Part shown: positions 1,791-11,586 of the stretch, in pieces
Numbering within the stretch: the stretch's first letter is position 1
How the letters are laid out: the number at the start of each line of letters is the position of its first letter
DNA from: a virus
Direction: 5' to 3' (one strand)
Virus record (IMG/VR): IMGVR_UViG_3300047276_000279
Span: 1-32,313 of that record
DNA: 32,313 bases
Program-made: the position numbers and the translations under genes
Notes under the pieces: generated by a model
Databases searched by the model: none
What the model saw: the letters and a program-made list of their open reading frames with translations, nothing else
What the model was told of the DNA's origin: nothing

Positions 1791-2038
1791 AAAAATACAT
1801 CACAAACATCATCGCTTCGTTCATCGTAGGTTCGGCTACTGCCGCTTTCCTTGTTGGATGCTATCCAAGCGAAAACACACATTATGTCGTGACGGTCTAT
1901 TCCAACGACGGCAAGCCCTTGAAGTCATACAAGACCAGCCATACCCCTTGGACGAGACGGGTTGGCTATGGAATCACGCTTGATGACGGCAGGGATGTCT
2001 ATTTTTCGGGTAATGTCGTAATCGAGGAAGTCCGATGA
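1787..2038 (+). CDS. Small putative lipoprotein
   Basis: The 83-residue protein begins with a Lys-containing N-terminus and a hydrophobic stretch that ends in a lipobox-like FLVGC, with the Cys at about residue 25. This suggests export and lipid attachment. The mature part is short, polar and probably beta-rich (HYVVTVYSNDGKPLKSYKTS). The ATGA overlaps tie it to the methyltransferase before it and the resolvase after it. No function is recognised. Superinfection exclusion and a spanin-like role are both known for small phage lipoproteins, but nothing here decides between them. Confidence 0.6.
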   Translation: MKKYITNIIASFIVGSATAAFLVGCYPSENTHYVVTVYSNDGKPLKSYKTSHTPWTRRVGYGITLDDGRDVYFSGNVVIEEVR

Positions 2039-2466
2039 AAAACTACCTTGCAATCGACCCTGGTGCCTCTGGCGGTTGGGTTCTGAAACTTGGTGAAGAT
2101 GCCTGCACCTCTGGCGACATCACCGAACTGGTGGACTTGCATTTTCCGCTGAACACGGTGGTAGTGCTGGAGAATGTGCCGCCCTTCGTTGGTCGGGCCA
2201 TCCCGTCCTCGGCGGCGTTCAAGTTGGGCAAGTCCTGCGGTTGGCTGGAAGGCTATTTCACGGGCAAGGGCTTTGCGGTTGTTCTCGTCCGTCCCCAGGA
2301 ATGGCAAAAGACGATGGGTGTCGGCACGAAGGGCAACTCGACCACCAGCGAGTGGAAGAACAAGTTGAAGGCCGAGGCCCAACGCCGCTTCCCGCTGAAC
2401 ACGATCACGCTCAAGACGGCTGACGCTTTTTGCTTGCTTGCCCACGCACGCCAGCACAACCTGTAA
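2035..2466 (+). CDS. RuvC-like Holliday junction resolvase
   Basis: The 143-residue protein has the RNase H-fold signature of RuvC-type nucleases: AIDPGASGG near the N-terminus (D8), VVLENVPPF (E46) in the second acidic position and KTADAFCLL (D130) near the C-terminus. The GTKGNSTTSEWKNKLKAEA segment before the last motif is typical of phage members. It would cut four-way junctions or branched DNA during recombination and before packaging. The neighbouring RecT-like and exonuclease genes support a role in phage recombination. Its length is slightly below that of cellular RuvC, as is common in phages. Confidence 0.8.
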   Translation: MKNYLAIDPGASGGWVLKLGEDACTSGDITELVDLHFPLNTVVVLENVPPFVGRAIPSSAAFKLGKSCGWLEGYFTGKGFAVVLVRPQEWQKTMGVGTKGNSTTSEWKNKLKAEAQRRFPLNTITLKTADAFCLLAHARQHNL

Positions 2467-2705: not shown

Positions 2706-3491
2706 ATGAGCCACGACACCACGCAACCAGCGGAGGACAAGAACCTCCCAGCCACCATCCAGACCAGCGAACTCGGCAACATCGCCATGTATGACCGCAT
2801 CACCGACCCGATGCAGGCCATCAAGACGCTTGGTGCCGCCATCTTCAAGTCGGGCATCTTCGGGGTGGATAAGCCCGAGATCGGGGAAGTCCTCGCCATG
2901 CAATGCCTGGCCGAGCGTAAGTCCCCGCTGGAACTCGCCCGCACCTATCACTTCATCGAGGGCAAGTTGGCCATCAAGTCCGACGCCCTGCTCGCCAAGT
3001 TCCAGATGGCTGGCGGTAGCGTGACCTGGACTACCCGCACCGACAAGTTGGTGGTTGCCACCTTCAGCAACAAGGGGTCGAGCGTTGAGATCGTAGCGGC
3101 CTTTGAGGATTACGAGAAGAAGGGCATCGTGTTTGGCAAGGACGGCAAGACGCTCAAGGACAACTGGCGTAAGTGGCCCAAGCAGATGCTGACGGCCCGA
3201 GCCATCTCGGAAGGCGTCCGCTTGGTCGCCCCCGAGTGTGCCTTCATCACGGTTGAGGAACTCGACTACGGCAACAAGGCATCGGCCATCGAGGTGGTTG
3301 CCACGCTCGACTCCATCATCCCCGAGTTCCAGCGGGAAGCCGCCGTCCGTGTGCTACGCAAAGTCGGCCACTTGACGGAAGCCCAAGGTTGGGCAGACAT
3401 CTCTAATGAGTTGGCCAACACCTTGAGCCATCCAAAGCGGTCGCAGGCTTTCGCCTCCGCCGTCAAAGCCGAATACGAATCCTCCCTCTAA
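2706..3491 (+). CDS. RecT-like ssDNA-annealing recombinase
   Basis: The 261-residue protein matches the pattern of phage RecT-type annealing proteins. It has a helical N-terminal half with the SPLELARTYHFIEGKLAIKS and ALLAKFQMAGGSVTW segments. The middle carries NWRKWPKQMLTARAISEGVR (about residues 150-170), followed by an acidic EELD. This block corresponds to the conserved core of the family in which a basic helix precedes a conserved Pro-Glu region. It would anneal complementary single strands exposed by the exonuclease encoded about 470 bp downstream. RecE/RecT pairs are classically adjacent, which strengthens both calls. The start at 2706 has no SD (TAATTTCCCT precedes it). The family call is from pattern memory and could be wrong at the subfamily level. 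Confidence 0.68.
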   Translation: MSHDTTQPAEDKNLPATIQTSELGNIAMYDRITDPMQAIKTLGAAIFKSGIFGVDKPEIGEVLAMQCLAERKSPLELARTYHFIEGKLAIKSDALLAKFQMAGGSVTWTTRTDKLVVATFSNKGSSVEIVAAFEDYEKKGIVFGKDGKTLKDNWRKWPKQMLTARAISEGVRLVAPECAFITVEELDYGNKASAIEVVATLDSIIPEFQREAAVRVLRKVGHLTEAQGWADISNELANTLSHPKRSQAFASAVKAEYESSL

Positions 3492-3957: not shown

Positions 3958-4740
3958 ATGAGTCATACTGACTATAATCAACTGAAGGCTCTGAACTACT
4001 CGGGTGCCAAGCAAATCCTCATCAGCCCTGCCCACTACCAGGCGTGGCTGGATGAAGTCAAGGAGGAGACGCCCGCTTTGAAGTTGGGTCGCCTCGTCCA
4101 CTTGGCTTCGCTGGAACCCGAGGAGTTCGACCGCACCGTACGGCTGATGCCCGAGTGCGACCGCCGCACCAAGGAGGGCAAGGCCATCTTTGAGGCGTTT
4201 GCCGCCACCATGAAGGCTGGCGAGGAAGCCTTGAAGAAGGACGAGATGGACGAGGTTATGGCCATCGCAGAATCGGCCCAGGCGGGCATCGAGAGCATCG
4301 CCGCTGGCCGTGACATGGTCCGCCTCAAGGAAGAAGTCGTGACGGGTAAGCACGAAGGCGTGAACATCAAGGGTCGTCCCGACCTTGTGTTGCATGGCAC
4401 CGACCGCACGATCATCGTGGACATCAAGACCACTATGGACGCCTCGCCCGAAGCCTTCGCCAAGGATGTGGCCAAGTATAAGTACCACCTCCAAGCCGCC
4501 TTCTACATGAAGATGACGGGTGCCAAGGAGTTCTACTTCGTGGCGGTCGAGAAGAAGAAGCCCTACGAGTGGGCGGTGTATTCGCTGGACGAAGCCGCCA
4601 TCGAGTCTGGCAACAAGATGATGACGAGTGCGTGCTTGACCTATCGGGAGTGTTCGCTCTACAACAACTGGCCAGGCTACTCCAAGGAACCCAAGACCAT
4701 CACCTTGCCCAAGTGGGCGTTCTTCAACGAGGAGTCCTAA
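3958..4740 (+). CDS. RecE/DUF3799-type PD-(D/E)XK exonuclease
   Basis: The 260-residue protein is a RecE-like/DUF3799 double-strand DNA exonuclease. The N-terminal YSGAKQILISPAHYQAWLDE and LKLGRLVHLASLEPEEF blocks are characteristic. The catalytic core is visible as GRPD (D142) and IIVDIKTT (D155-I-K157), the PD-(D/E)XK signature for metal-dependent cleavage. The following YKYHLQAAFYMKM helix supplies the conserved Gln/Tyr. It would chew 5' ends to give 3' tails for the RecT-like protein. An ATG with ACC directly upstream and no SD is used. The two small genes between it and the recT-like gene are an unusual interruption of an otherwise classic pair. Confidence 0.88.
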   Translation: MSHTDYNQLKALNYSGAKQILISPAHYQAWLDEVKEETPALKLGRLVHLASLEPEEFDRTVRLMPECDRRTKEGKAIFEAFAATMKAGEEALKKDEMDEVMAIAESAQAGIESIAAGRDMVRLKEEVVTGKHEGVNIKGRPDLVLHGTDRTIIVDIKTTMDASPEAFAKDVAKYKYHLQAAFYMKMTGAKEFYFVAVEKKKPYEWAVYSLDEAAIESGNKMMTSACLTYRECSLYNNWPGYSKEPKTITLPKWAFFNEES

Positions 4741-4761: not shown

Positions 4762-5202
4762 ATGAGCATCAAATCGTTCAACCCGAAGGCCGCAGAATCC
4801 ACGAACTGGATTTCCAAGGCTGGCACCTATGAGGTCACCGTCCGTGGCTTTGAGGCCAAATACACCAAGAACGCCGACTACTACGCCAAGTTCACCTTCG
4901 TGACGGAAGGTGGCGATGCGACCAGCGGCATCATCTACGCCAAACCCGACCGCAACGGCAATCACCTGGGCCTTGAGTCCTTCATGGCGGCTACGGCCAC
5001 CGATGAGGAGGTCAAGGAGTATGTGGACGCTGGCGAGATCAATGTGGACGAAACCTTTTTGGAGAAGGTCGCCAACCGTTCCAAGGGTCGCCGCCTCATC
5101 GTGGTCGTGACCGAGCGTGAGTATGAGAAGGACGGCCAGAAGAAGAAGTTGTACGAGGCTTCGTTCTTCCGCCGCCTGCCTAACGGTCCTGGCCCGTTCT
5201 AA
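4762..5202 (+). CDS. Probable ssDNA-binding protein
   Basis: The 146-residue protein has a beta-rich N-terminal half with alternating hydrophobic and basic or aromatic residues (YEVTVRGFEAKYTKNADYYA), resembling the DUF669/Enc34-like OB-fold proteins of phages. A helical middle and a final strand with basic residues follow. It ends in PNGPGPF; the terminal Pro-Phe recalls the protein-interaction tip of bacterial SSB, although the tail is not acidic. It lies directly after the exonuclease and before a helicase, where phages usually carry their single-strand binding protein. A terminator follows, so it may be made at a high level. Family placement is moderately sure. Confidence 0.62.
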   Translation: MSIKSFNPKAAESTNWISKAGTYEVTVRGFEAKYTKNADYYAKFTFVTEGGDATSGIIYAKPDRNGNHLGLESFMAATATDEEVKEYVDAGEINVDETFLEKVANRSKGRRLIVVVTEREYEKDGQKKKLYEASFFRRLPNGPGPF

Positions 5203-5299: not shown

Positions 5300-5485
5300 A
5301 TGAACGACATTCACGATCACCTCTGGGCGTACCTCAAGGCCGTCCGAAACTCCGAAGCCATCAAGGAGTGGCTTCACTACGCCAACATCCTGCTGAAGCG
5401 GAACGGCCTGCCCACGCAGACCACGCCGCTGGACGCCCAGCGTATGCTCAAGAACATCACCAAGCACTACCTGTTCTTCGTATGA
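5300..5485 (+). CDS. Hypothetical 61-aa helical protein
   Basis: The ATG at 5300 is the first in-frame start after the terminator; a longer frame would run through the terminator and is unlikely. The product is helical, with WAYLKAVRNSEAIKEWLHYA in the N-terminal half and KNITKHYLFFV at the end. No family is recognised. The stop overlaps the helicase start as ATGA, so it may be a coupled leader gene or a small helicase partner. Confidence 0.6.
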   Translation: MNDIHDHLWAYLKAVRNSEAIKEWLHYANILLKRNGLPTQTTPLDAQRMLKNITKHYLFFV

Positions 5486-6954
5486 AACTCCGAGACTACC
5501 AGGAAGCCGCCGTCACCTCCGCCTGCACGCATTTGGCGAAGGGCGTCAACCCGTTGGTGATCGCACCCACGGGAGCAGGCAAGACCGTCATCGCTTCCGA
5601 AATCATGAGACGCTGGCAGTTGGACAACCCGACCAAGGCGTGCTTCTTCGTGGCCCACCGCAACGAACTGCTGGAGCAGGCGGAAGGCACGATGGGCAAG
5701 TTCGGCGTGCGGGGCAAGGTGCTGTCGGTGTTCCAGCGTGAGTTTGCGGACATCTCTGACGCCGACAAGCGTGACGCCTTGGTGGTGTTCGATGAGGCCC
5801 ACCACGCCGTGGCGTCCTCTTGGGCTAACTTCTCCAGCGTGTTCACGGGTCCGAAGTTGGCGGTGACCGCTACGCCCGACCGCATGGACCGCCAGAAGAT
5901 CGAGGAAGTCGGGTTCGTGCAGGCTTACGAAATCGCCATCCGCACGCTCATTGAGCAAGGCCACCTCGTCCGCCCGCTGGCCTACAAGATGCCCGTGGAA
6001 CTTTCCAACATCCTGCTGAAAGGGTATGACCATCCGCTGGAGGCTATTGCGGACTGCATCGTGGACGAGATGAAGCGTTGGGACCGCAAGAAGGCCATCG
6101 CCTTCCTGCCCGATGTGGAAACATCCGAGCGTCTGGTGTCCCTGCTGAACAAGCGTGGATGCCCTGCGTCCCATGTGGACGGCACGACCCACGACTATAT
6201 GCGGTCGTACGCCATCAACTCCTACAAGACGGGCGAGACGAAGGTGCTGTGTAATGTCAACCTGTTCACGGAAGGTTTCGATGCTCCCGAGACGGATTGC
6301 GTGGTGCTGTTGCGTCCTACGCAGTCTCGGGCGTTGTGGGTGCAGATGATCGGGCGTGGCCTGCGGACGGCGGAAGGCAAGACGGACTGCCTCATCTTGG
6401 ACCCGATGTGGATTTCGGGGGAAAACTCGTTCCAGCCTTCGGACGCCTTCACGGTGTTCCCAGGTGCCAAGGGTCGGATGGTGGAGGGTGGGCACGACCC
6501 GCTGGCCGAGGCCGAGATGCAGGACAAGTCGGCGGAACAGCGTATGCTGGAACGCATCGCCAAGGAGGAACGCCGCCAGCAGGCCAAGGAAGCCCGTGAG
6601 ATGGGGTTTGTGGACCTGTCCGTGGCTTGTGCCTGTTTTGGGTTCATCCTGCCTCCTGTGGGCAAGGACGAGCCTCTAATGACCGCTGGGCAGGAGGCCG
6701 AACTGAACCGCCACAAGGTGTACGCCAAGGGGGTAACGCAATCGCAGGCTTCTTGGATGATCGGTCGCTTGCAGGCTCGGGAGCGTCTTGGGTTGGCCAC
6801 GGTCAAGCAAGTCCGCAAGTTGCGTCAGTTCGGAATCGCCAATGCGTTGAAGTTGACGGTGACGCAGGCGAGCCAAGCGATTGGTGCCGACTGGCGGATG
6901 GCTGGCAAAAAGACCTTTACAAACCGCCCGAATGTGGCATACAAACTCAAGTAA
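5482..6954 (+). CDS. Superfamily 2 DEAH helicase
   Basis: The 490-residue protein carries the ordered motifs of an SF2 DNA/RNA helicase: Q-like LRDYQ at the N-terminus, Walker A APTGAGKT (K34), Ia VAHRNELLEQA, II DEAH (104-107), III AVTATPDR, V TEGFDAPETD and VI QMIGRGLR (288-295). The C-terminal about 150 residues contain acidic and basic helices and a final all-helical part (WMIGRLQARERLG onward). The start chosen at 5482 gives the canonical N-terminal Q-motif; the frame extends further upstream but would overlap the previous gene. It would unwind or translocate on duplex or branched DNA during replication or recombination. Its place beside the recombination genes and upstream of the primase gene fits that. 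Confidence 0.9.
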   Translation: MKLRDYQEAAVTSACTHLAKGVNPLVIAPTGAGKTVIASEIMRRWQLDNPTKACFFVAHRNELLEQAEGTMGKFGVRGKVLSVFQREFADISDADKRDALVVFDEAHHAVASSWANFSSVFTGPKLAVTATPDRMDRQKIEEVGFVQAYEIAIRTLIEQGHLVRPLAYKMPVELSNILLKGYDHPLEAIADCIVDEMKRWDRKKAIAFLPDVETSERLVSLLNKRGCPASHVDGTTHDYMRSYAINSYKTGETKVLCNVNLFTEGFDAPETDCVVLLRPTQSRALWVQMIGRGLRTAEGKTDCLILDPMWISGENSFQPSDAFTVFPGAKGRMVEGGHDPLAEAEMQDKSAEQRMLERIAKEERRQQAKEAREMGFVDLSVACACFGFILPPVGKDEPLMTAGQEAELNRHKVYAKGVTQSQASWMIGRLQARERLGLATVKQVRKLRQFGIANALKLTVTQASQAIGADWRMAGKKTFTNRPNVAYKLK

Positions 6955-6959
6955 CCACT

Positions 6960-7478
6960 ATGAGCCACGACGAAGAAATGGATATGGCGATGTCCCGCAT
7001 CGGGGTATTGCGTTATCAGTTGGAGCAGGCGAACGATGAGATTGCCAGGTTGCGATCTTCTTCCTTCGTGACCGCTGTGCCATCCGATGAATACGAAAAG
7101 GTCAAAACCGAACTGGCCAATCTCAAGGCCGAGCGTGACCAACTTAAAGCCGACCTTGAGAAGTCGGATGGGGTGGTCTGGACGCTGTCGGTCGAGAACG
7201 ATCGACTCAAGCAAAGCCTTCGACTTCAGATTGAACAGAACGCACTCGCACAAGTTGGCTTCAAAATGTATCAAGACAATGTGGACTCTGGTGGTCTGCA
7301 CAAGGACAGGAAAGACGCGATTGCTAGGCTTGAAGCCGAGAACGCCCGCCTCAAGGCCGAGGTCGAGCGTCTGACCAAGGCGGGGGACGCTATGATGGGC
7401 TGGATTGACCACCAGCATGACGACAGCGGATACCAACACTCGGAAGCGTGGGAAGCCGCCAAGGGGGTGCAGCCGTGA
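6960..7478 (+). CDS. Coiled-coil protein, first of the cassette array
   Basis: The 172-residue protein is almost entirely heptad-like (YQLEQANDEIARLRS; AERDQLKADLEKSDG; LEAENARLKAEVERLTKAGD). After the shared LTKAGDAM block the C-terminus ends AKGVQP. The ATG at 6960 lies 5 nt after the helicase stop and has no SD. The last 18 nt form the repeated junction that also starts the next gene. The coil block is repeated nearly identically in DNA in later genes of the array, so the set arose by duplication or exchange. No enzymatic motif is visible; an oligomeric scaffold or decoy role is possible. Confidence 0.72.
   Translation: MSHDEEMDMAMSRIGVLRYQLEQANDEIARLRSSSFVTAVPSDEYEKVKTELANLKAERDQLKADLEKSDGVVWTLSVENDRLKQSLRLQIEQNALAQVGFKMYQDNVDSGGLHKDRKDAIARLEAENARLKAEVERLTKAGDAMMGWIDHQHDDSGYQHSEAWEAAKGVQP
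7344..7394 (+). repeat. Array-internal repeat, copy 1
   Basis: This encodes ARLKAEVERLTKAGDAM. Its last 36 nt differ at three positions from the copy at 7697-7732. Conservation at DNA level, including silent sites, points to recent duplication or homologous exchange rather than protein-level convergence. Confidence 0.8.
7461..7478 (+). repeat. GTGA junction repeat J1
   Basis: The 18-nt sequence AAGGGGGTGCAGCCGTGA encodes the end of one gene (KGVQP stop) and at the same time provides a purine-rich SD-like run and the GTG start of the next. The same layout, AAGGG-N5-AGYCGTGA, recurs at four later junctions. Confidence 0.8.
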
Positions 7479-7804
7479 TCGAGCCTAAACGATACGATTT
7501 CCGCATCAGAGCCTGCGACTGCGTAAAGCGTGAACACCTTGAAGGGAAGTACGCCCCTCTCGCTCTGATCATCGAGGAAACCAAAGAGAACTGCGGTTGG
7601 GTGTCATACGAGGACTACGCCCGCCTCCGCTCCGAGGTAGAGCGGCTGACGGACTTCACCACCCGCACCATCATCCCGAACGAGGAACTGCAAGCACAGG
7701 TCGAGCGTCTGACCAAGGCGGGGGATGCGATGTGCCGAATGGCTGGCAACAACCAAGTCATCAACAGGCATTGGAAAACTGCCAAGAAGGGGGTGCAGTC
7801 GTGA
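7475..7804 (+). CDS. Array protein 2 (coiled-coil)
   Basis: This 109-residue product starts with GTG inside the preceding stop (GTGA). It begins MIEPKRYDFRIRACDC, paralogous to the start of the protein from 7941 (MSEPKRYQRCYHKDY). It then has an EDYARLRSEVERLTDF block, the shared QVERLTKAGDAM segment and the C-terminal KKGVQS. The conserved opening plus coil plus tail layout makes it a shortened sibling of the 7941 protein. Two cysteines near the N-terminus (ACDC) could bind a metal. Function is unknown. Confidence 0.7.
   Translation: MIEPKRYDFRIRACDCVKREHLEGKYAPLALIIEETKENCGWVSYEDYARLRSEVERLTDFTTRTIIPNEELQAQVERLTKAGDAMCRMAGNNQVINRHWKTAKKGVQS
7697..7732 (+). repeat. Array-internal repeat, copy 2
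   Basis: This 36-nt segment encodes QVERLTKAGDAM and differs from the copy at 8260-8295 at a single base. Confidence 0.85.
7787..7804 (+). repeat. GTGA junction repeat J2
   Basis: AAGGGGGTGCAGTCGTGA ends one array gene (KGVQS) and starts the next at GTG 7801. It is identical to J4 and one base different from J1. Confidence 0.8.
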
Positions 7805-7944
7805 GCCGCAAGAACCCTTACGAAGCAGGAACAATCAAAGCGACCACTTGGGCTTTGCTAAAGCCTGTCCGACAAGCGGAAGCCAAACGCAGGAAGAACA
7901 CAAAGGGTGCTTTTGGTAAATCCAAGAAGGGTGCCCAGCCGTGA
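7801..7944 (+). CDS. 47-aa basic array protein
   Basis: This very short gene uses the GTG in the GTGA junction. The product (MSRKNPYEAGTIKATTWALL...) is strongly basic, lacks the coil block and ends KKGAQP, a variant of the array tail. Both its borders are junction repeats. It therefore looks like either a minimal cassette or the remnant of one after deletion of the coil. Confidence 0.6.
   Translation: MSRKNPYEAGTIKATTWALLKPVRQAEAKRRKNTKGAFGKSKKGAQP
7927..7944 (+). repeat. GTGA junction repeat J3
   Basis: AAGGGTGCCCAGCCGTGA keeps the AAGGG start and the AGCCGTGA end of the junction while the middle five bases differ. It encodes KGAQP stop and the GTG start at 7941. Confidence 0.75.
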
Positions 7945-8399
7945 GCGAGCCGAAGCGATACCAGCGTTGCTACCACAAGGACTACATCCCAGAAGGGATG
8001 GAGGAACACTACAACGGCAAGTGGGTCAAGTGGGAGGATTACGCCCGCCTCAAGGCCGAGGTCGAGAAGTGGGAAAAGAACACGCAACTTATGGGCAGAC
8101 AACTCAATGATGAACTTGAGCAAGTCGCCCGCCTCAAGGCCGAGGTCGAACGATGGAAGTTCACCCTTGAAGAAGAACGCCAGATTATGCGTGAGGATTG
8201 GGCTGGGCTTCGATGCGAGAAAGATAGGGTTCAACGAGCATTGGAATACGCCGAAGCACAGGTCGAGCGTCTGACCAAAGCGGGGGATGCGATGCATTGT
8301 TTCCTAATCGGATACATTGTTGAAAACCGCCTATCGTCTGCACACCTCAACAAATTAGACGATGATTGGTCGAACGCCGCCAAGGGGGTGCAGTCGTGA
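7941..8399 (+). CDS. Array protein 4 (coiled-coil)
   Basis: The 152-residue product starts at GTG in the junction. It begins MSEPKRYQRCYHKDYIPEGM, then carries WEDYARLKAEVEKWEKN, ARLKAEVERWKF, a helical middle (EEERQIMREDWAGLRCEKDR), the shared QVERLTKAGDAM block and a variable segment before AAKGVQS. It is the longest of the array members that share the EPKRY opening. The coil block occurs three times inside it in degenerate form, suggesting internal duplication as well as gene duplication. Function is unknown. Confidence 0.72.
   Translation: MSEPKRYQRCYHKDYIPEGMEEHYNGKWVKWEDYARLKAEVEKWEKNTQLMGRQLNDELEQVARLKAEVERWKFTLEEERQIMREDWAGLRCEKDRVQRALEYAEAQVERLTKAGDAMHCFLIGYIVENRLSSAHLNKLDDDWSNAAKGVQS
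8260..8295 (+). repeat. Array-internal repeat, copy 3
   Basis: This 36-nt segment encodes QVERLTKAGDAM and differs from the copy at 7697-7732 by one base (a silent change in the Lys codon). Confidence 0.85.
8382..8399 (+). repeat. GTGA junction repeat J4
   Basis: AAGGGGGTGCAGTCGTGA, identical to J2, ends the 7941 gene and starts the next at GTG 8396. Confidence 0.8.
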
Positions 8400-8698
8400 G
8401 CGAGGAAAAGCCTTGGATGCATCCCAAATACGATGTAATGAACATGGCAGACGATGACATCGTTTTGGCATCAATAGCCAAACTCTACAAATCAGAGATG
8501 CTCCTTGCTGTCGTAGAGGTTGAACGCCTTAAAGCCGAAGTCGAAAGGCTGACGGCTGAACTGAACAAGATGACCAAGACCCCAAATGGCGTCGATGGCG
8601 TCGAAGTGAAGGTATCATTCTGGACTAAATCTGGCACTCGCCTGCCTTCGTCTTACAGCACCTTTTTCTGGGTGAACGATAAGGGAGGTAAGTCGTGA
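8396..8698 (+). CDS. Array protein 5 (coil plus beta-rich tail)
   Basis: The 100-residue product starts at the junction GTG (MSEEKPWMHPKYDVMNMADD). A central VEVERLKAEVERLTAELNKM coil is related to the other array members. A different C-terminal half with beta-strand character follows (VEVKVSFWTKSGTRLPSSYS). It ends DKGGKS at a fifth junction. The swap of the C-terminal half against a conserved coil is what cassette exchange would produce. No function is recognised. Confidence 0.7.
   Translation: MSEEKPWMHPKYDVMNMADDDIVLASIAKLYKSEMLLAVVEVERLKAEVERLTAELNKMTKTPNGVDGVEVKVSFWTKSGTRLPSSYSTFFWVNDKGGKS
8681..8698 (+). repeat. GTGA junction repeat J5 with strong SD
   Basis: AAGGGAGGTAAGTCGTGA keeps the AAGGG and AGTCGTGA ends. 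The middle here makes a near-perfect SD (GGGAGG) in front of the GTG at 8695, showing that the motif can act as the ribosome binding site. Confidence 0.75.
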
Positions 8699-9018
8699 GA
8701 CAGACAGGACACAATACCCTCGGCTACGGCAAGACCCGTGATGCCGTCATCGCTGGCCATAAGGCGGGTCTGACCAAGAAGCAGATCGCAGAGAAACACG
8801 GACTCTCCCGCCCAGCCGTCCACAACTGTGCATACAGGCTCGGGCTGAAGTTCGATTATGTTGTCCTCAAGCGACCATACGGGGACATCAAGTACGCAGT
8901 CCTTGAGTCCGCAGAGAAGGGGATGACGGTCCGTGAAATCGTCAAGACCCACGGGTTCCGATACAGGACTGTCTATTCCATCAACCGTGACCTTAACCTT
9001 GGACTAAAACTAAAATGA
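8695..9018 (+). CDS. Tandem helix-turn-helix protein
   Basis: The 107-residue protein has two HTH-like units. The first is AGLTKKQIAEKHGLSRPAVH (about residues 24-43); the second is KGMTVREIVKTHGFRYRTVY (about 75-94). Both have the helix-turn-helix spacing of resolvase or sigma region 4-like DNA binders. A basic N-terminus precedes them. It could regulate phage genes or bind repeated sites such as those at the window ends; this is inference. It starts with GTG behind the best SD of the array and overlaps the next gene as ATGA. Confidence 0.72.
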   Translation: MRQTGHNTLGYGKTRDAVIAGHKAGLTKKQIAEKHGLSRPAVHNCAYRLGLKFDYVVLKRPYGDIKYAVLESAEKGMTVREIVKTHGFRYRTVYSINRDLNLGLKLK

Positions 9019-9194
9019 CCGATATGACCCCAGACGAACTTGCCGAGATCATCGCCAAGTACCGATACAATTCCGTACAGGACCGCTACCGCATCGAGCG
9101 TCTGACCATCGAGAACATCGAACTGCGGAAAGAACTTGATATGCTCAAGTTAGTTCAGCAGAACAAATGCCACGATTGCCCTAAACAACCTTAA
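9015..9194 (+). CDS. 59-aa coiled-coil protein
   Basis: The product (MTDMTPDELAEIIAKYRYNS at the start) continues with IERLTIENIELRKELDMLKL, a heptad-like helix, and ends CHDCPKQP with a CxxC pair. The 13-nt stretch CGAGCGTCTGACC at 9095-9107 is also the core of the internal repeat in the upstream array, so this gene is probably a diverged member. The ATG overlaps the HTH gene stop by 4 nt. Function is unknown. Confidence 0.62.
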   Translation: MTDMTPDELAEIIAKYRYNSVQDRYRIERLTIENIELRKELDMLKLVQQNKCHDCPKQP

Positions 9195-9816: not shown

Positions 9817-10009
9817 GGGCAAGCGGTACACCAAGGGGCTGACGCTCCTTCGGCGTATTCTCGGCCAGGCCGTAGGGCTGAACCGCCACGCCACCTTCTC
9901 GCCCAAGGAGGCCATCGACATCTTGTTGGCCGTTGATGAGGTGGCACCACGCAAGGGTTCCAACATCCCGAACTACCAGCACAAGGTCGTGTCTAAACTC
10001 CGTGGCTAA
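9743..10009 (+). CDS. Hypothetical protein, possibly frame 2 of a split gene
   Basis: As a stand-alone gene the first usable ATG is at 9743, which overlaps the previous gene by 74 nt. That is far more than the 1-19 nt overlaps elsewhere in this unit and argues for a joined product. The C-terminal part (RYTKGLTLLRRILGQAVGLN, then FSPKEAIDILLAVDEVAPRK) is helical and ends YQHKVVSKLRG. It may be a small DNA-binding or replication accessory protein; no family is recognised. Confidence 0.5.
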   Translation: MEKSSPDSIPAISPPPWYQKPERVKGKRYTKGLTLLRRILGQAVGLNRHATFSPKEAIDILLAVDEVAPRKGSNIPNYQHKVVSKLRG

Positions 10010-10724
10010 CATCACCCAAGGTTATCGAAGGTTCATGGCCGTTGGGTGTTCCCACGGCATCTACGCCGACCCGCTGGCGGTCGAGGCGGTCGCCAAGTTC
10101 CGTGAGTCCTTCAACCCCCATGAGATGATCCACCTGGGGGATTTTACTGATATGTCCCCGTTCATGGGCGGGTCTGGTGGGGAGGGCGACCCCATCAAGC
10201 CAGACCTAATAGGGGGCATCGAGTTCTTGAACCGCCTGCGTTGCACCGTGGTGTTGGCTGGCAACCATGAAGCCAGACTCTGGCGTGACCGCAACAGCCA
10301 CAACCAACTGCGGGCGATGGCGGCACAGACGAGCATCGAGGCCATTGAGGTGGCCTGCTTGAAGTTGCACGCCCAACTCATCCCGTATTCTGGGGTGTGG
10401 CAAGTCTATCAGTTGGCCAACTACAAGTTCACCCACGGCACGATCTACAACGAGAACTCGGCCCGTGACATGGCGGAGATGTACGGAAATGTCATCTTCG
10501 CCCATACGCACAAGGCCAGCATCCAGATGGGCCGCACCTACAACCCCGCCCAAGGCATCTCCGTGGGCACGCTGACCCGCAAAGGGGCGATGGAGTACGC
10601 CAATACCCGCCGTAGCACGCTGGGCTGGTCGCAGGGCTTCGTCTATGGGGAATACACGGACAACGCCTTGTACCCCACGCTTCACATCCACGATGGCACC
10701 GACCAATGGAAACTCCCGAATTGA
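10002..10724 (+). CDS. Calcineurin-like metallophosphoesterase
   Basis: The 240-residue protein has the ordered metal-binding motifs of the metallophosphoesterase fold: AVGCSHG (H18), HLGDFTD (D47), LAGNHEARLWRDR (N88, H89), FTHGTIY (H145) and FAHTHKA (H168, H170). It would hydrolyse a phosphodiester or phosphomonoester with two metal ions; the substrate could be DNA ends, nucleotides or a host signalling molecule. The usual first Asp (D-x-H) is replaced by Cys16. The GTG at 10002 overlaps the previous stop; an ATG at 10035 (MAVGCSHG) has GAAGG just upstream and is a serious alternative. It overlaps the next gene by 19 nt. Confidence 0.8.
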   Translation: MANITQGYRRFMAVGCSHGIYADPLAVEAVAKFRESFNPHEMIHLGDFTDMSPFMGGSGGEGDPIKPDLIGGIEFLNRLRCTVVLAGNHEARLWRDRNSHNQLRAMAAQTSIEAIEVACLKLHAQLIPYSGVWQVYQLANYKFTHGTIYNENSARDMAEMYGNVIFAHTHKASIQMGRTYNPAQGISVGTLTRKGAMEYANTRRSTLGWSQGFVYGEYTDNALYPTLHIHDGTDQWKLPN

Positions 10725-10989: not shown

Positions 10990-11586
10990 ATGAAAATACT
11001 AATAGCCTGCGAATACTCTGGCACCGTTAGGGATGCCTTCATCAAACTCGGACACACCGCAATTTCTTGCGATCTGTTGCCCACGGATGTCCCTGGGCCG
11101 CATTACCAAGGGGATGTGTTCGACATCATCAACGACGGTTTCGACATGATGATTGCACACCCTCCTTGCACCTATCTATGCAGTTCTGGACTACATTGGA
11201 ATGGCAGGGTTCCAGGGAGACAGGAGAAAACAGAATTGGCCATAGATTTTGTAAGAAAACTTTACGATTCTAATATTCATAGAATTGCGATTGAAAACCC
11301 GATTGGTTGCTTGTCTAAACGACTTCTAAAGCCCAATCAGATTATTCAGCCATATCACTTTGGAGATGATGCCAGCAAAGCAACTTGTCTGTGGCTTAAA
11401 AACTTACCATGTCTTATGCCGACCAAGATGATTGATGGTCGAATTGTAAATGGAAAACGAAGGTGGGCAAATCAGACAGATAGTGGTCAAAATAGGCTTG
11501 GACCTTCTGATGACCGATGGAAGGAAAGAAGCAAGACCTACCAAGGCATCGCAGACGCTATGGCCAACCAATGGGGGACTATCTAA
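10990..11586 (+). CDS. Second DNA cytosine methyltransferase
   Basis: The 198-residue protein belongs to a phage methyltransferase type with MKILIACEYSGTVRDAF at the N-terminus (SAM-binding motif I region), AHPPCTYLCSSG with catalytic C60, and IENPIG (102-104 ENP). A later YHFGDDASKATCLWLKNLP block is common in this phage subfamily. The ATG at 10990 gives the canonical start; a TTG at 10945 would add 15 residues of little merit. From about 11200 to 11560 the codons are clearly richer in A and T than in its neighbours (for example Lys AAA, Asn AAT, Ile ATT), which suggests recent acquisition. It differs from the enzyme at 1125 in length and motif context, so the two are not recent duplicates. 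Confidence 0.78.
   Translation: MKILIACEYSGTVRDAFIKLGHTAISCDLLPTDVPGPHYQGDVFDIINDGFDMMIAHPPCTYLCSSGLHWNGRVPGRQEKTELAIDFVRKLYDSNIHRIAIENPIGCLSKRLLKPNQIIQPYHFGDDASKATCLWLKNLPCLMPTKMIDGRIVNGKRRWANQTDSGQNRLGPSDDRWKERSKTYQGIADAMANQWGTI

Follow-up and report, generated by a model that had tools for sequence, protein, structure and literature searches.

How the same short coding sequence comes to join different small genes, and whether it marks the borders at which such genes are exchanged between phages, is the question raised by a gene array in a viral DNA record of 32,313 bases (IMG/VR record IMGVR_UViG_3300047276_000279, positions 1 to 32,313; the whole stretch is referred to below as the window). 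The array consists of five small genes, g1 to g5, followed by a helix-turn-helix (HTH) gene, and its junctions J1 to J5 carry the motif AAGGGN5AGYCGTGA, here called the linker. Five exact copies are present in the record, all on the plus strand and none outside the array. Allowing up to two mismatches adds two sites, giving a total of seven against a chance expectation of 1.5, and seven was reached in 0 of 100 shuffles. At every copy the TGA closes one open frame and the overlapping GTG opens the next, as read from the translations. J1, J2 and J4 have almost the same sequence (AAGGGGGTGCAGYCGTGA), and J3 and J5 are diverged versions.

A preliminary description of the DNA had proposed an exchangeable array of coiled-coil genes joined at five such junctions, each encoding the C-terminus of one gene and the GTG start of the next. 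The five junctions were recovered with zero mismatches, far above chance, and the open frames agree with this double role. The motif is absent from the other gene overlaps of this genome, so the cassette interpretation is not refuted on that count. The array is real, but its description was slightly too uniform. The EPKRY-type opening ascribed to the array genes occurs in g2 and g4 only, with no EPKRY in g3 and EEKPW in g5; coil blocks are found in g1, g2, g4 and g5 but not in g3; and the KGVQS/P end holds for g1 (AAKGVQP), g2 and g4 (both KGVQS) but not for g3 (KGAQP) or g5 (GGKS).

Syntenic relatives were retrieved by the upstream helicase, an anchor independent of the motif (individual stretches are numbered with the prefix L). 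Over 36 syntenic loci, the interval between the helicase and the downstream metallophosphoesterase ranges from 0.55 to 3.7 kb. In the window the HTH gene comes after five genes. In L013, L014 and L015 (helicase 97% identical) it comes after a single coiled-coil gene, the HTH protein being 85–86% identical, and L016 (helicase 97% identical) has two cassettes, lacks the HTH gene and is joined straight to g7. The DNA encoding the N-terminus of g1 is matched by L013 to about position 7198 and by L016 to about 7211, with divergence beyond. Similarity to L013–L015 resumes at 8691, inside J5, and the second breakpoint with L016 is the start of g7, where ATGACC is replaced by the linker's GTGAGC. Other phages share internal segments. 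L008 and L009 match the window at 99.3% identity over 280 nt (7787–8066), a stretch that opens with the first base of J2, takes in all of g3 and stops at the coil block of g4; the DNA that flanks it on both sides there is unrelated to that of the window. L007 has 7698–8060 in common with the window, a stretch that begins at the AGDAM block of g2 and likewise reaches the coil block of g4. The edges of these segments place the breakpoints at the linker and at internal repeated blocks. Residues 33–100 of g5, which precedes the HTH gene in the window, are 69% identical to a stretch of L008 that precedes g3 there. The variable number and content of cassettes anticipated by the preliminary description were thus found, with one, two or five cassettes and breakpoints at the junction; the contrary expectation, the same genes in the same order and length in all relatives, was not.

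The linker is present well beyond this locus. The helicase-anchored set contains 39 linkers on the forward strand, most of them exact, against 0 on the reverse strand and 0.7 in Markov controls. The search of other phage genomes proposed earlier gave a stronger result than predicted: the linker of relatives, AAGGAGGGCAAGCAGYCGTGA, which encodes KEGKQS/P and is here called the A form, was found in at least 120 stretches of viral DNA, next to many unrelated gene families. The window's own form was found in 77 stretches, a few of which are probably chance matches. The junction is therefore widespread, as had been supposed, but its dominant form is one codon longer than the one described. A GCC prefix precedes 104 of 118 exact A-form copies, and the GCC-extended A form had 0 matches in 257 Gb of bacterial and archaeal genomes. 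Linker length varies between 18 and 21 nt and the reading frame is always kept. The carriers form a large group of uncultured, mainly environmental phages. These phages differ in their packaging genes: of 36 long contigs with the linker, only 17 have a recognisable homologue of the window's terminase. DNA and protein searches of isolate phages with the locus DNA and g4 gave no match, and the window's terminase and helicase have only distant isolate-phage matches (24–31%). The helicase has relatives at 81% and 68% on short, possibly mis-binned contigs in Verrucomicrobiota and Planctomycetia metagenome-assembled genomes (L279 and L280), a weak hint of a host among Verrucomicrobiota/Planctomycetota. 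In L026 (positions 2714, 2944 and 4427), a third linker form, AAGGAGGGCAAGCCGAGCGTATGA, with the tail KEGKPSV and an ATG start, is repeated within one phage, which suggests lineage-specific homogenisation of linkers. A 26-kb viral contig carries six linker junctions in about 1.4 kb, a denser array than that of the window (L131:3479–4885).

Partner exchange was measured on 242 distinct junctions, each side of which was clustered on DNA at ≥75% identity next to the linker, with ordinary 4-nt overlaps in the same contigs as the control. Several downstream partners were found in 33 of 40 multi-member upstream clusters, and several upstream partners in 35 of 39 downstream clusters. Among pairs of junctions with the same upstream gene, 25 of 145 also shared the downstream gene at the linker, compared with 243 of 449 at ordinary overlaps; for pairs with the same downstream gene, the upstream gene was also shared in 25 of 346 compared with 243 of 274. 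Since random pairing would yield 1.7 doubly matching pairs where 25 were observed, exchange is extensive but not complete. A single connected network takes in 41 downstream and 60 upstream clusters. Junctions sharing an upstream gene fall to background identity directly past the TGA, and those sharing a downstream gene do so upstream of about −20 (B form) or about −35 (A form). The cluster containing g3 (D4) stands behind seven different upstream clusters, and g3 itself is 98% identical in phages with differing neighbours. Retrieval by the helicase did not select for the linker, and in that smaller set it is the upstream gene that varies (it differs in 19 of 25 pairs with the same downstream gene), the downstream side being stable. 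By these alignments, unrelated genes appear to have been exchanged exactly at the linker, usually with nothing but the linker conserved. The exchangeable array proposed for the window is thus supported by relatives, partner swapping and breakpoints, and it reaches well beyond the window.

Among the genes joined by the linker are the EPKRY coiled-coil family, HTH proteins, an IstB-like ATPase, a metallophosphoesterase, SLT-type transglycosylases, a D12 adenine methyltransferase with AAKEGKQP at its own C-terminus, and, by a weak match, a nucleotide-kinase-like protein. This varied cargo indicates that the linker is not a trait of one protein family; the earlier picture of a coiled-coil array holds for the small coiled-coil genes among the cargo, but other families are linked too. 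The predicted fold of g4 consists of two short N-terminal strands, a 98-residue helix and a short helix, the long helix being confident (predicted local distance difference test, pLDDT, 93), and it had no significant match among viral structures. Defence-system models gave only weak matches of coiled-coil type and one weak match to the HTH protein. The cassette proteins are likely to be early accessory or host-interaction factors.

Exchange is also seen inside the coiled-coil genes. The coil block RLKAEVE has several partners in 28 of 32 and 36 of 39 multi-member clusters, and the ERLTKAGDAM block in 10 of 11 and 9 of 10, with swap profiles in which identity drops off outside each block. Of the 177 coil-block copies (among 184) with at least one open frame, only one lacks an open RLKAEVE frame. 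With several partners for each block, the coiled-coil genes themselves are built of exchangeable modules.

Duplex energies with the anti-Shine-Dalgarno (anti-SD) sequence were −13.6 (J1), −13.7 (J2), −13.6 (J4), −12.0 (J5) and −6.2 kcal/mol (J3), which bears out the SD-like run ascribed to the junctions and marks J3 as weak. Other gene starts of the window lie mostly between +3 and −3.3 kcal/mol, two of the fourteen being at −5.9 and −7.9. Across the linkers the median energy, quoted because the mean is distorted by outliers, is −11.4 kcal/mol. Energies of −8 or lower are reached by 95% of linkers, compared with 5% (ATGA) and 14% (GTGA) for the remaining 4-nt overlaps of these contigs. By these predicted energies, the linker gives a strong SD sequence in phages in which SD sequences are rare at other gene overlaps. 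Outside the array, most genes of the window are without an SD sequence (for example those starting at 5482, 6960, 9015, 9197, 2706 and 3958), and the host may be one that seldom uses SD-led initiation.

Such a signal could be kept by selection for ribosome binding alone, the swapping being due to illegitimate recombination filtered for working junctions. The linker is indeed a strong SD sequence at normal spacing, and illegitimate recombination is a standard account of phage mosaicism (PMC3029335). We nevertheless regard this explanation as improbable. Between the SD sequence and the start lie nucleotides (GCAAGCAGYC) that play no part in pairing and yet hardly vary, even at synonymous sites, which speaks for common descent and exchange rather than for ribosome-binding selection alone. 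Junctions that arose independently should differ in end peptide and SD spacing, and the intragenic coil and AGDAM blocks, which are not ribosome-binding sites, show the same breakpoint behaviour.

Starting from the observed linker identity, gene swapping, breakpoints at the linker and SD strength relative to other overlaps, we consider it likely that the junction links genes for translation and also serves recombination as a short homology arm. Its codons supply the last five or six residues of the upstream protein (KEGKQS/P, KGVQS/P or KGGQP) together with the strong SD sequence, and its RTGA serves as both upstream stop and downstream start, so that any following gene would be translated in the operon. 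Recombination at the linker would then insert, delete or replace whole genes with the reading frames untouched. The presence of the same ~20 nt at several junctions per phage and in many phages is what would make it a homology arm. The in-frame RLKAEVE and ERLTKAGDAM blocks would act likewise inside genes, reassorting N-terminal, coil and C-terminal modules. The annealing would probably be performed by the phage exonuclease/RecT-like system, and translation of the downstream gene would depend on the linker. Genes for a Holliday junction resolvase, a RecT-like protein, an exonuclease VIII-like nuclease, a single-strand DNA binding protein and a helicase lie upstream of the array in the window, and the window's exonuclease family is present in 27 of 36 long linker-bearing contigs compared with 1 of 14 control genomes. 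Lambda Red is reported to tolerate diverged homology, and RecET to act on 5–13 bp (PMC2327257), which makes annealing at the linker plausible.

Several points weigh against this interpretation. A length of ~20 nt is short for homologous recombination to be efficient. A RecT-like protein similar to that of the window was found in only 10 of 36 long contigs, a count that does not cover other annealing proteins. Some relatives carrying the anchor are without the linker (L020, the L023 interval, L028 and L030), and in the helicase-anchored set the downstream gene too is shared in six of six pairs with the same upstream gene. Every record with the linker is a metagenomic contig, none coming from an isolate, and retrieval by exact pattern inflates the apparent conservation of the linker.

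A dedicated integron-like site-specific recombinase that recognises the linker would account for the layout seen here, which resembles that of integrons in its short genes with an unchanging boundary, and for crossovers focused on the linker. It is very unlikely: the window genes scanned against PHROGs, which were part of the window's open reading frames, include no integrase or transposase, and the existence of several linker subtypes, together with exchange at unrelated coil blocks, fits homology and not one recognised site. Equally doubtful is an assembly artefact in which unrelated phages were joined at a short repeat. Several contigs (L006, L010 and L011) do end at or inside a linker, as if the repeat had branched the assembly graph. 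However, helicase and phosphoesterase identities run at 97/91–96, 81/80 and mostly 66–69/54–59 (exceptions L023, 67/70, and L046, 69/47), and this joint variation (Spearman 0.55, P=0.0005, n=36) argues against chimeric assembly. The same adjacencies also recur in different metagenomes (L013/L014/L015, and 25 pairs sharing both upstream and downstream gene), and the repeat measures merely 18–21 nt with its frame always kept. Tandem duplication and divergence of a paralogous family with kept ends, in the absence of exchange between phages, fits the relatedness of g2 and g4 (35% identity), the coil blocks common to g1, g2, g4 and g5, and the single subtype of most linkers in the window and in L131, but it is largely refuted by identical cassettes in different neighbourhoods (g3) and by mutually unrelated, changing flanking genes, among them the D12 methyltransferase, IstB-like ATPase, phosphoesterases and SLT transglycosylases, and has very little probability left.

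The features of the window are collected in Table 1. Two separate genes of the window, at 1125–1790 and 10990–11586, both match the phage DNA methyltransferase family phrog_757.

Table 1 Genes, linkers and repeated blocks of the window, with the evidence for each
Feature	Coordinates	Strand	Evidence
Holliday junction resolvase	2035..2466	+	phrog_1770 E=6e-14
RecT-like single-strand annealing protein	2706..3491	+	phrog_561 E=5.5e-10
Exonuclease VIII-like PD-(D/E)XK nuclease	3958..4740	+	phrog_412 E=5e-65, PF12684 E=6e-31
Single-strand DNA binding protein (SSB)	4762..5202	+	phrog_378 E=4e-7
DNA helicase, conserved left anchor of the variable locus	5482..6954	+	phrog_16 E=4.7e-71
g1, coiled-coil protein, 172 aa, linker tag AAKGVQP at end	6960..7478	+	translation
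Coil block RLKAEVE in g1, intragenic exchange point	7343..7369	+	repeat D1, swap profile
ERLTKAGDAM block in g1, intragenic exchange point	7354..7394	+	repeat D3, swap profile
Linker J1 AAGGGGGTGCAGCCGTGA	7461..7478	+	exact motif
g2, EPKRY - coil - TKAGDAM - KGVQS protein, 109 aa, GTG start	7475..7804	+	translation
Coil block in g2	7618..7644	+	repeat D1
ERLTKAGDAM block in g2; left breakpoint with L007 at 7698	7692..7732	+	repeat D3
Linker J2 AAGGGGGTGCAGTCGTGA; left edge of 280-nt segment common to L008, L009	7787..7804	+	exact motif, alignment
g3, basic protein, 47 aa, no coil block	7801..7944	+	translation
Linker J3 AAGGGTGCCCAGCCGTGA, diverged, weak SD	7927..7944	+	exact motif
g4, EPKRY - coil - TKAGDAM - KGVQS protein, 152 aa	7941..8399	+	translation
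Coil block in g4; right breakpoint of segment shared with L008/L009	8042..8068	+	repeat D1, alignment
Second coil block in g4	8126..8152	+	repeat D1
ERLTKAGDAM block in g4	8254..8294	+	repeat D3
Linker J4 AAGGGGGTGCAGTCGTGA	8382..8399	+	exact motif
g5, coil-containing protein, 100 aa	8396..8698	+	translation
Coil block in g5	8521..8547	+	repeat D1
Linker J5 AAGGGAGGTAAGTCGTGA; right breakpoint relative to L013, L014, L015	8681..8698	+	exact motif, alignment
HTH protein, 107 aa, last linker-started gene here	8695..9018	+	PF13384, PF13551 above cut-off
g7, ATG start in the window	9015..9194	+	alignment with L016
Metallophosphoesterase, conserved right anchor; true start probably slightly downstream	9933..10724	+	phrog_221 E=2.5e-13

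Several known elements resemble the linker in part. The PeSLs of T4-related phages (Comeau et al. 2014, by the account in PMC4503421) are described as composite promoter-terminator motifs, repeated regulatory elements between small accessory genes that mediate shuffling among related phages. Gene exchange at a repeated element is likewise evident at the linker from partner swapping and the breakpoint profile. Unlike the PeSLs in that account, the linker lies inside coding sequence, carries a ribosome-binding site and an overlapping stop and start, and puts the same tail on unrelated proteins; its 4-nt overlap leaves no intergenic space for an early promoter or a stem-loop terminator, for which no dedicated promoter/terminator scan was made. 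The start-associated sequences (SAS) and extended SAS (ESAS) of Cluster K mycobacteriophages are built on a 13-bp repeat, GGGATAGGAGCCC, located 3–7 bp before starts, mostly in intergenic gaps of more than 50 bp and half of them with 17-bp inverted repeats (PMC3203893). They share with the linker an SD core before the starts of different gene families, conserved beyond rRNA pairing (PMC3203893). The linker differs in sequence and is coding, with 4-nt stop/start overlaps (inverted repeats were not specifically searched for), and exchange, merely suggested for the SAS, is evident here from partner swapping.

Recombination at a shared coding 3' end is indicated in Cluster I, where the last 18 codons (~50 bp) of an inserted gene of Island3 (gp67/gp68) are also those of its upstream neighbour (PMC3029335). 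This is a single event in one phage pair, whereas the linker stands at hundreds of junctions in many gene families. The boundary sequences of lambdoid phages are short conserved gene-border sequences proposed as recombination sites (PMC3029335). The linker too is a short homologous border common to exchanged modules; unlike boundary sequences as presented there, it is one sequence at many borders, within and between genomes.

A further parallel is Ea22 of lambdoid phages, a variable coiled-coil protein encoded in an operon with exo and bet, whose unrelated C-terminal domains share a last tripeptide K/R-G-E (PMC7093339). Matches to the Pfam Ead/Ea22 family were absent for g2–g5 and P0005 (E≤0.1) and for the cargo tested (E≤0.01), and for g1 among the 25 listed of its 32 weak matches. 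The lambda ea22 gene (L295:848–1396) ends in AAA GGA GAG TGA, which is SD-like, overlaps GTGA and encodes the K/R-G-E ending called unexplained in PMC7093339. The next annotated gene is ~190 nt away, and ea22 was rejected as an instance of the same device and kept as a parallel only. By analogy, a tail that equals a ribosome-binding site might occur in other lambdoid phages. We found no paper on the present linker in the open literature, subscription papers being mostly outside the scope of the search. In the sources consulted, none of the nearest known systems has a coding linker with a ribosome-binding site and stop/start overlap that tags unrelated proteins at hundreds of junctions.

The mosaicism of phage genomes at gene borders is a long-standing question, for which illegitimate recombination has often been invoked because border sequences can usually not be found. 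Here a border sequence is visible and widespread and has an independent reason, ribosome binding, to be there, and the idea of modular exchange thereby becomes directly testable. The linker offers a search handle for exchangeable genes in uncultured phages, maybe including counter-defence or takeover factors, and the presence of a strong-SD linker among SD-poor overlaps poses a testable question of how cassettes stay expressed in new contexts. We suggest only tentatively that the linker may be a selected exchange standard across the phage community, by which, along with the in-frame exchange blocks within genes, combinatorial operons and coiled-coil proteins would be assembled in the absence of a site-specific recombinase. 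If so, any gene bearing the linker could be plugged into the operon of another phage with its translation guaranteed.

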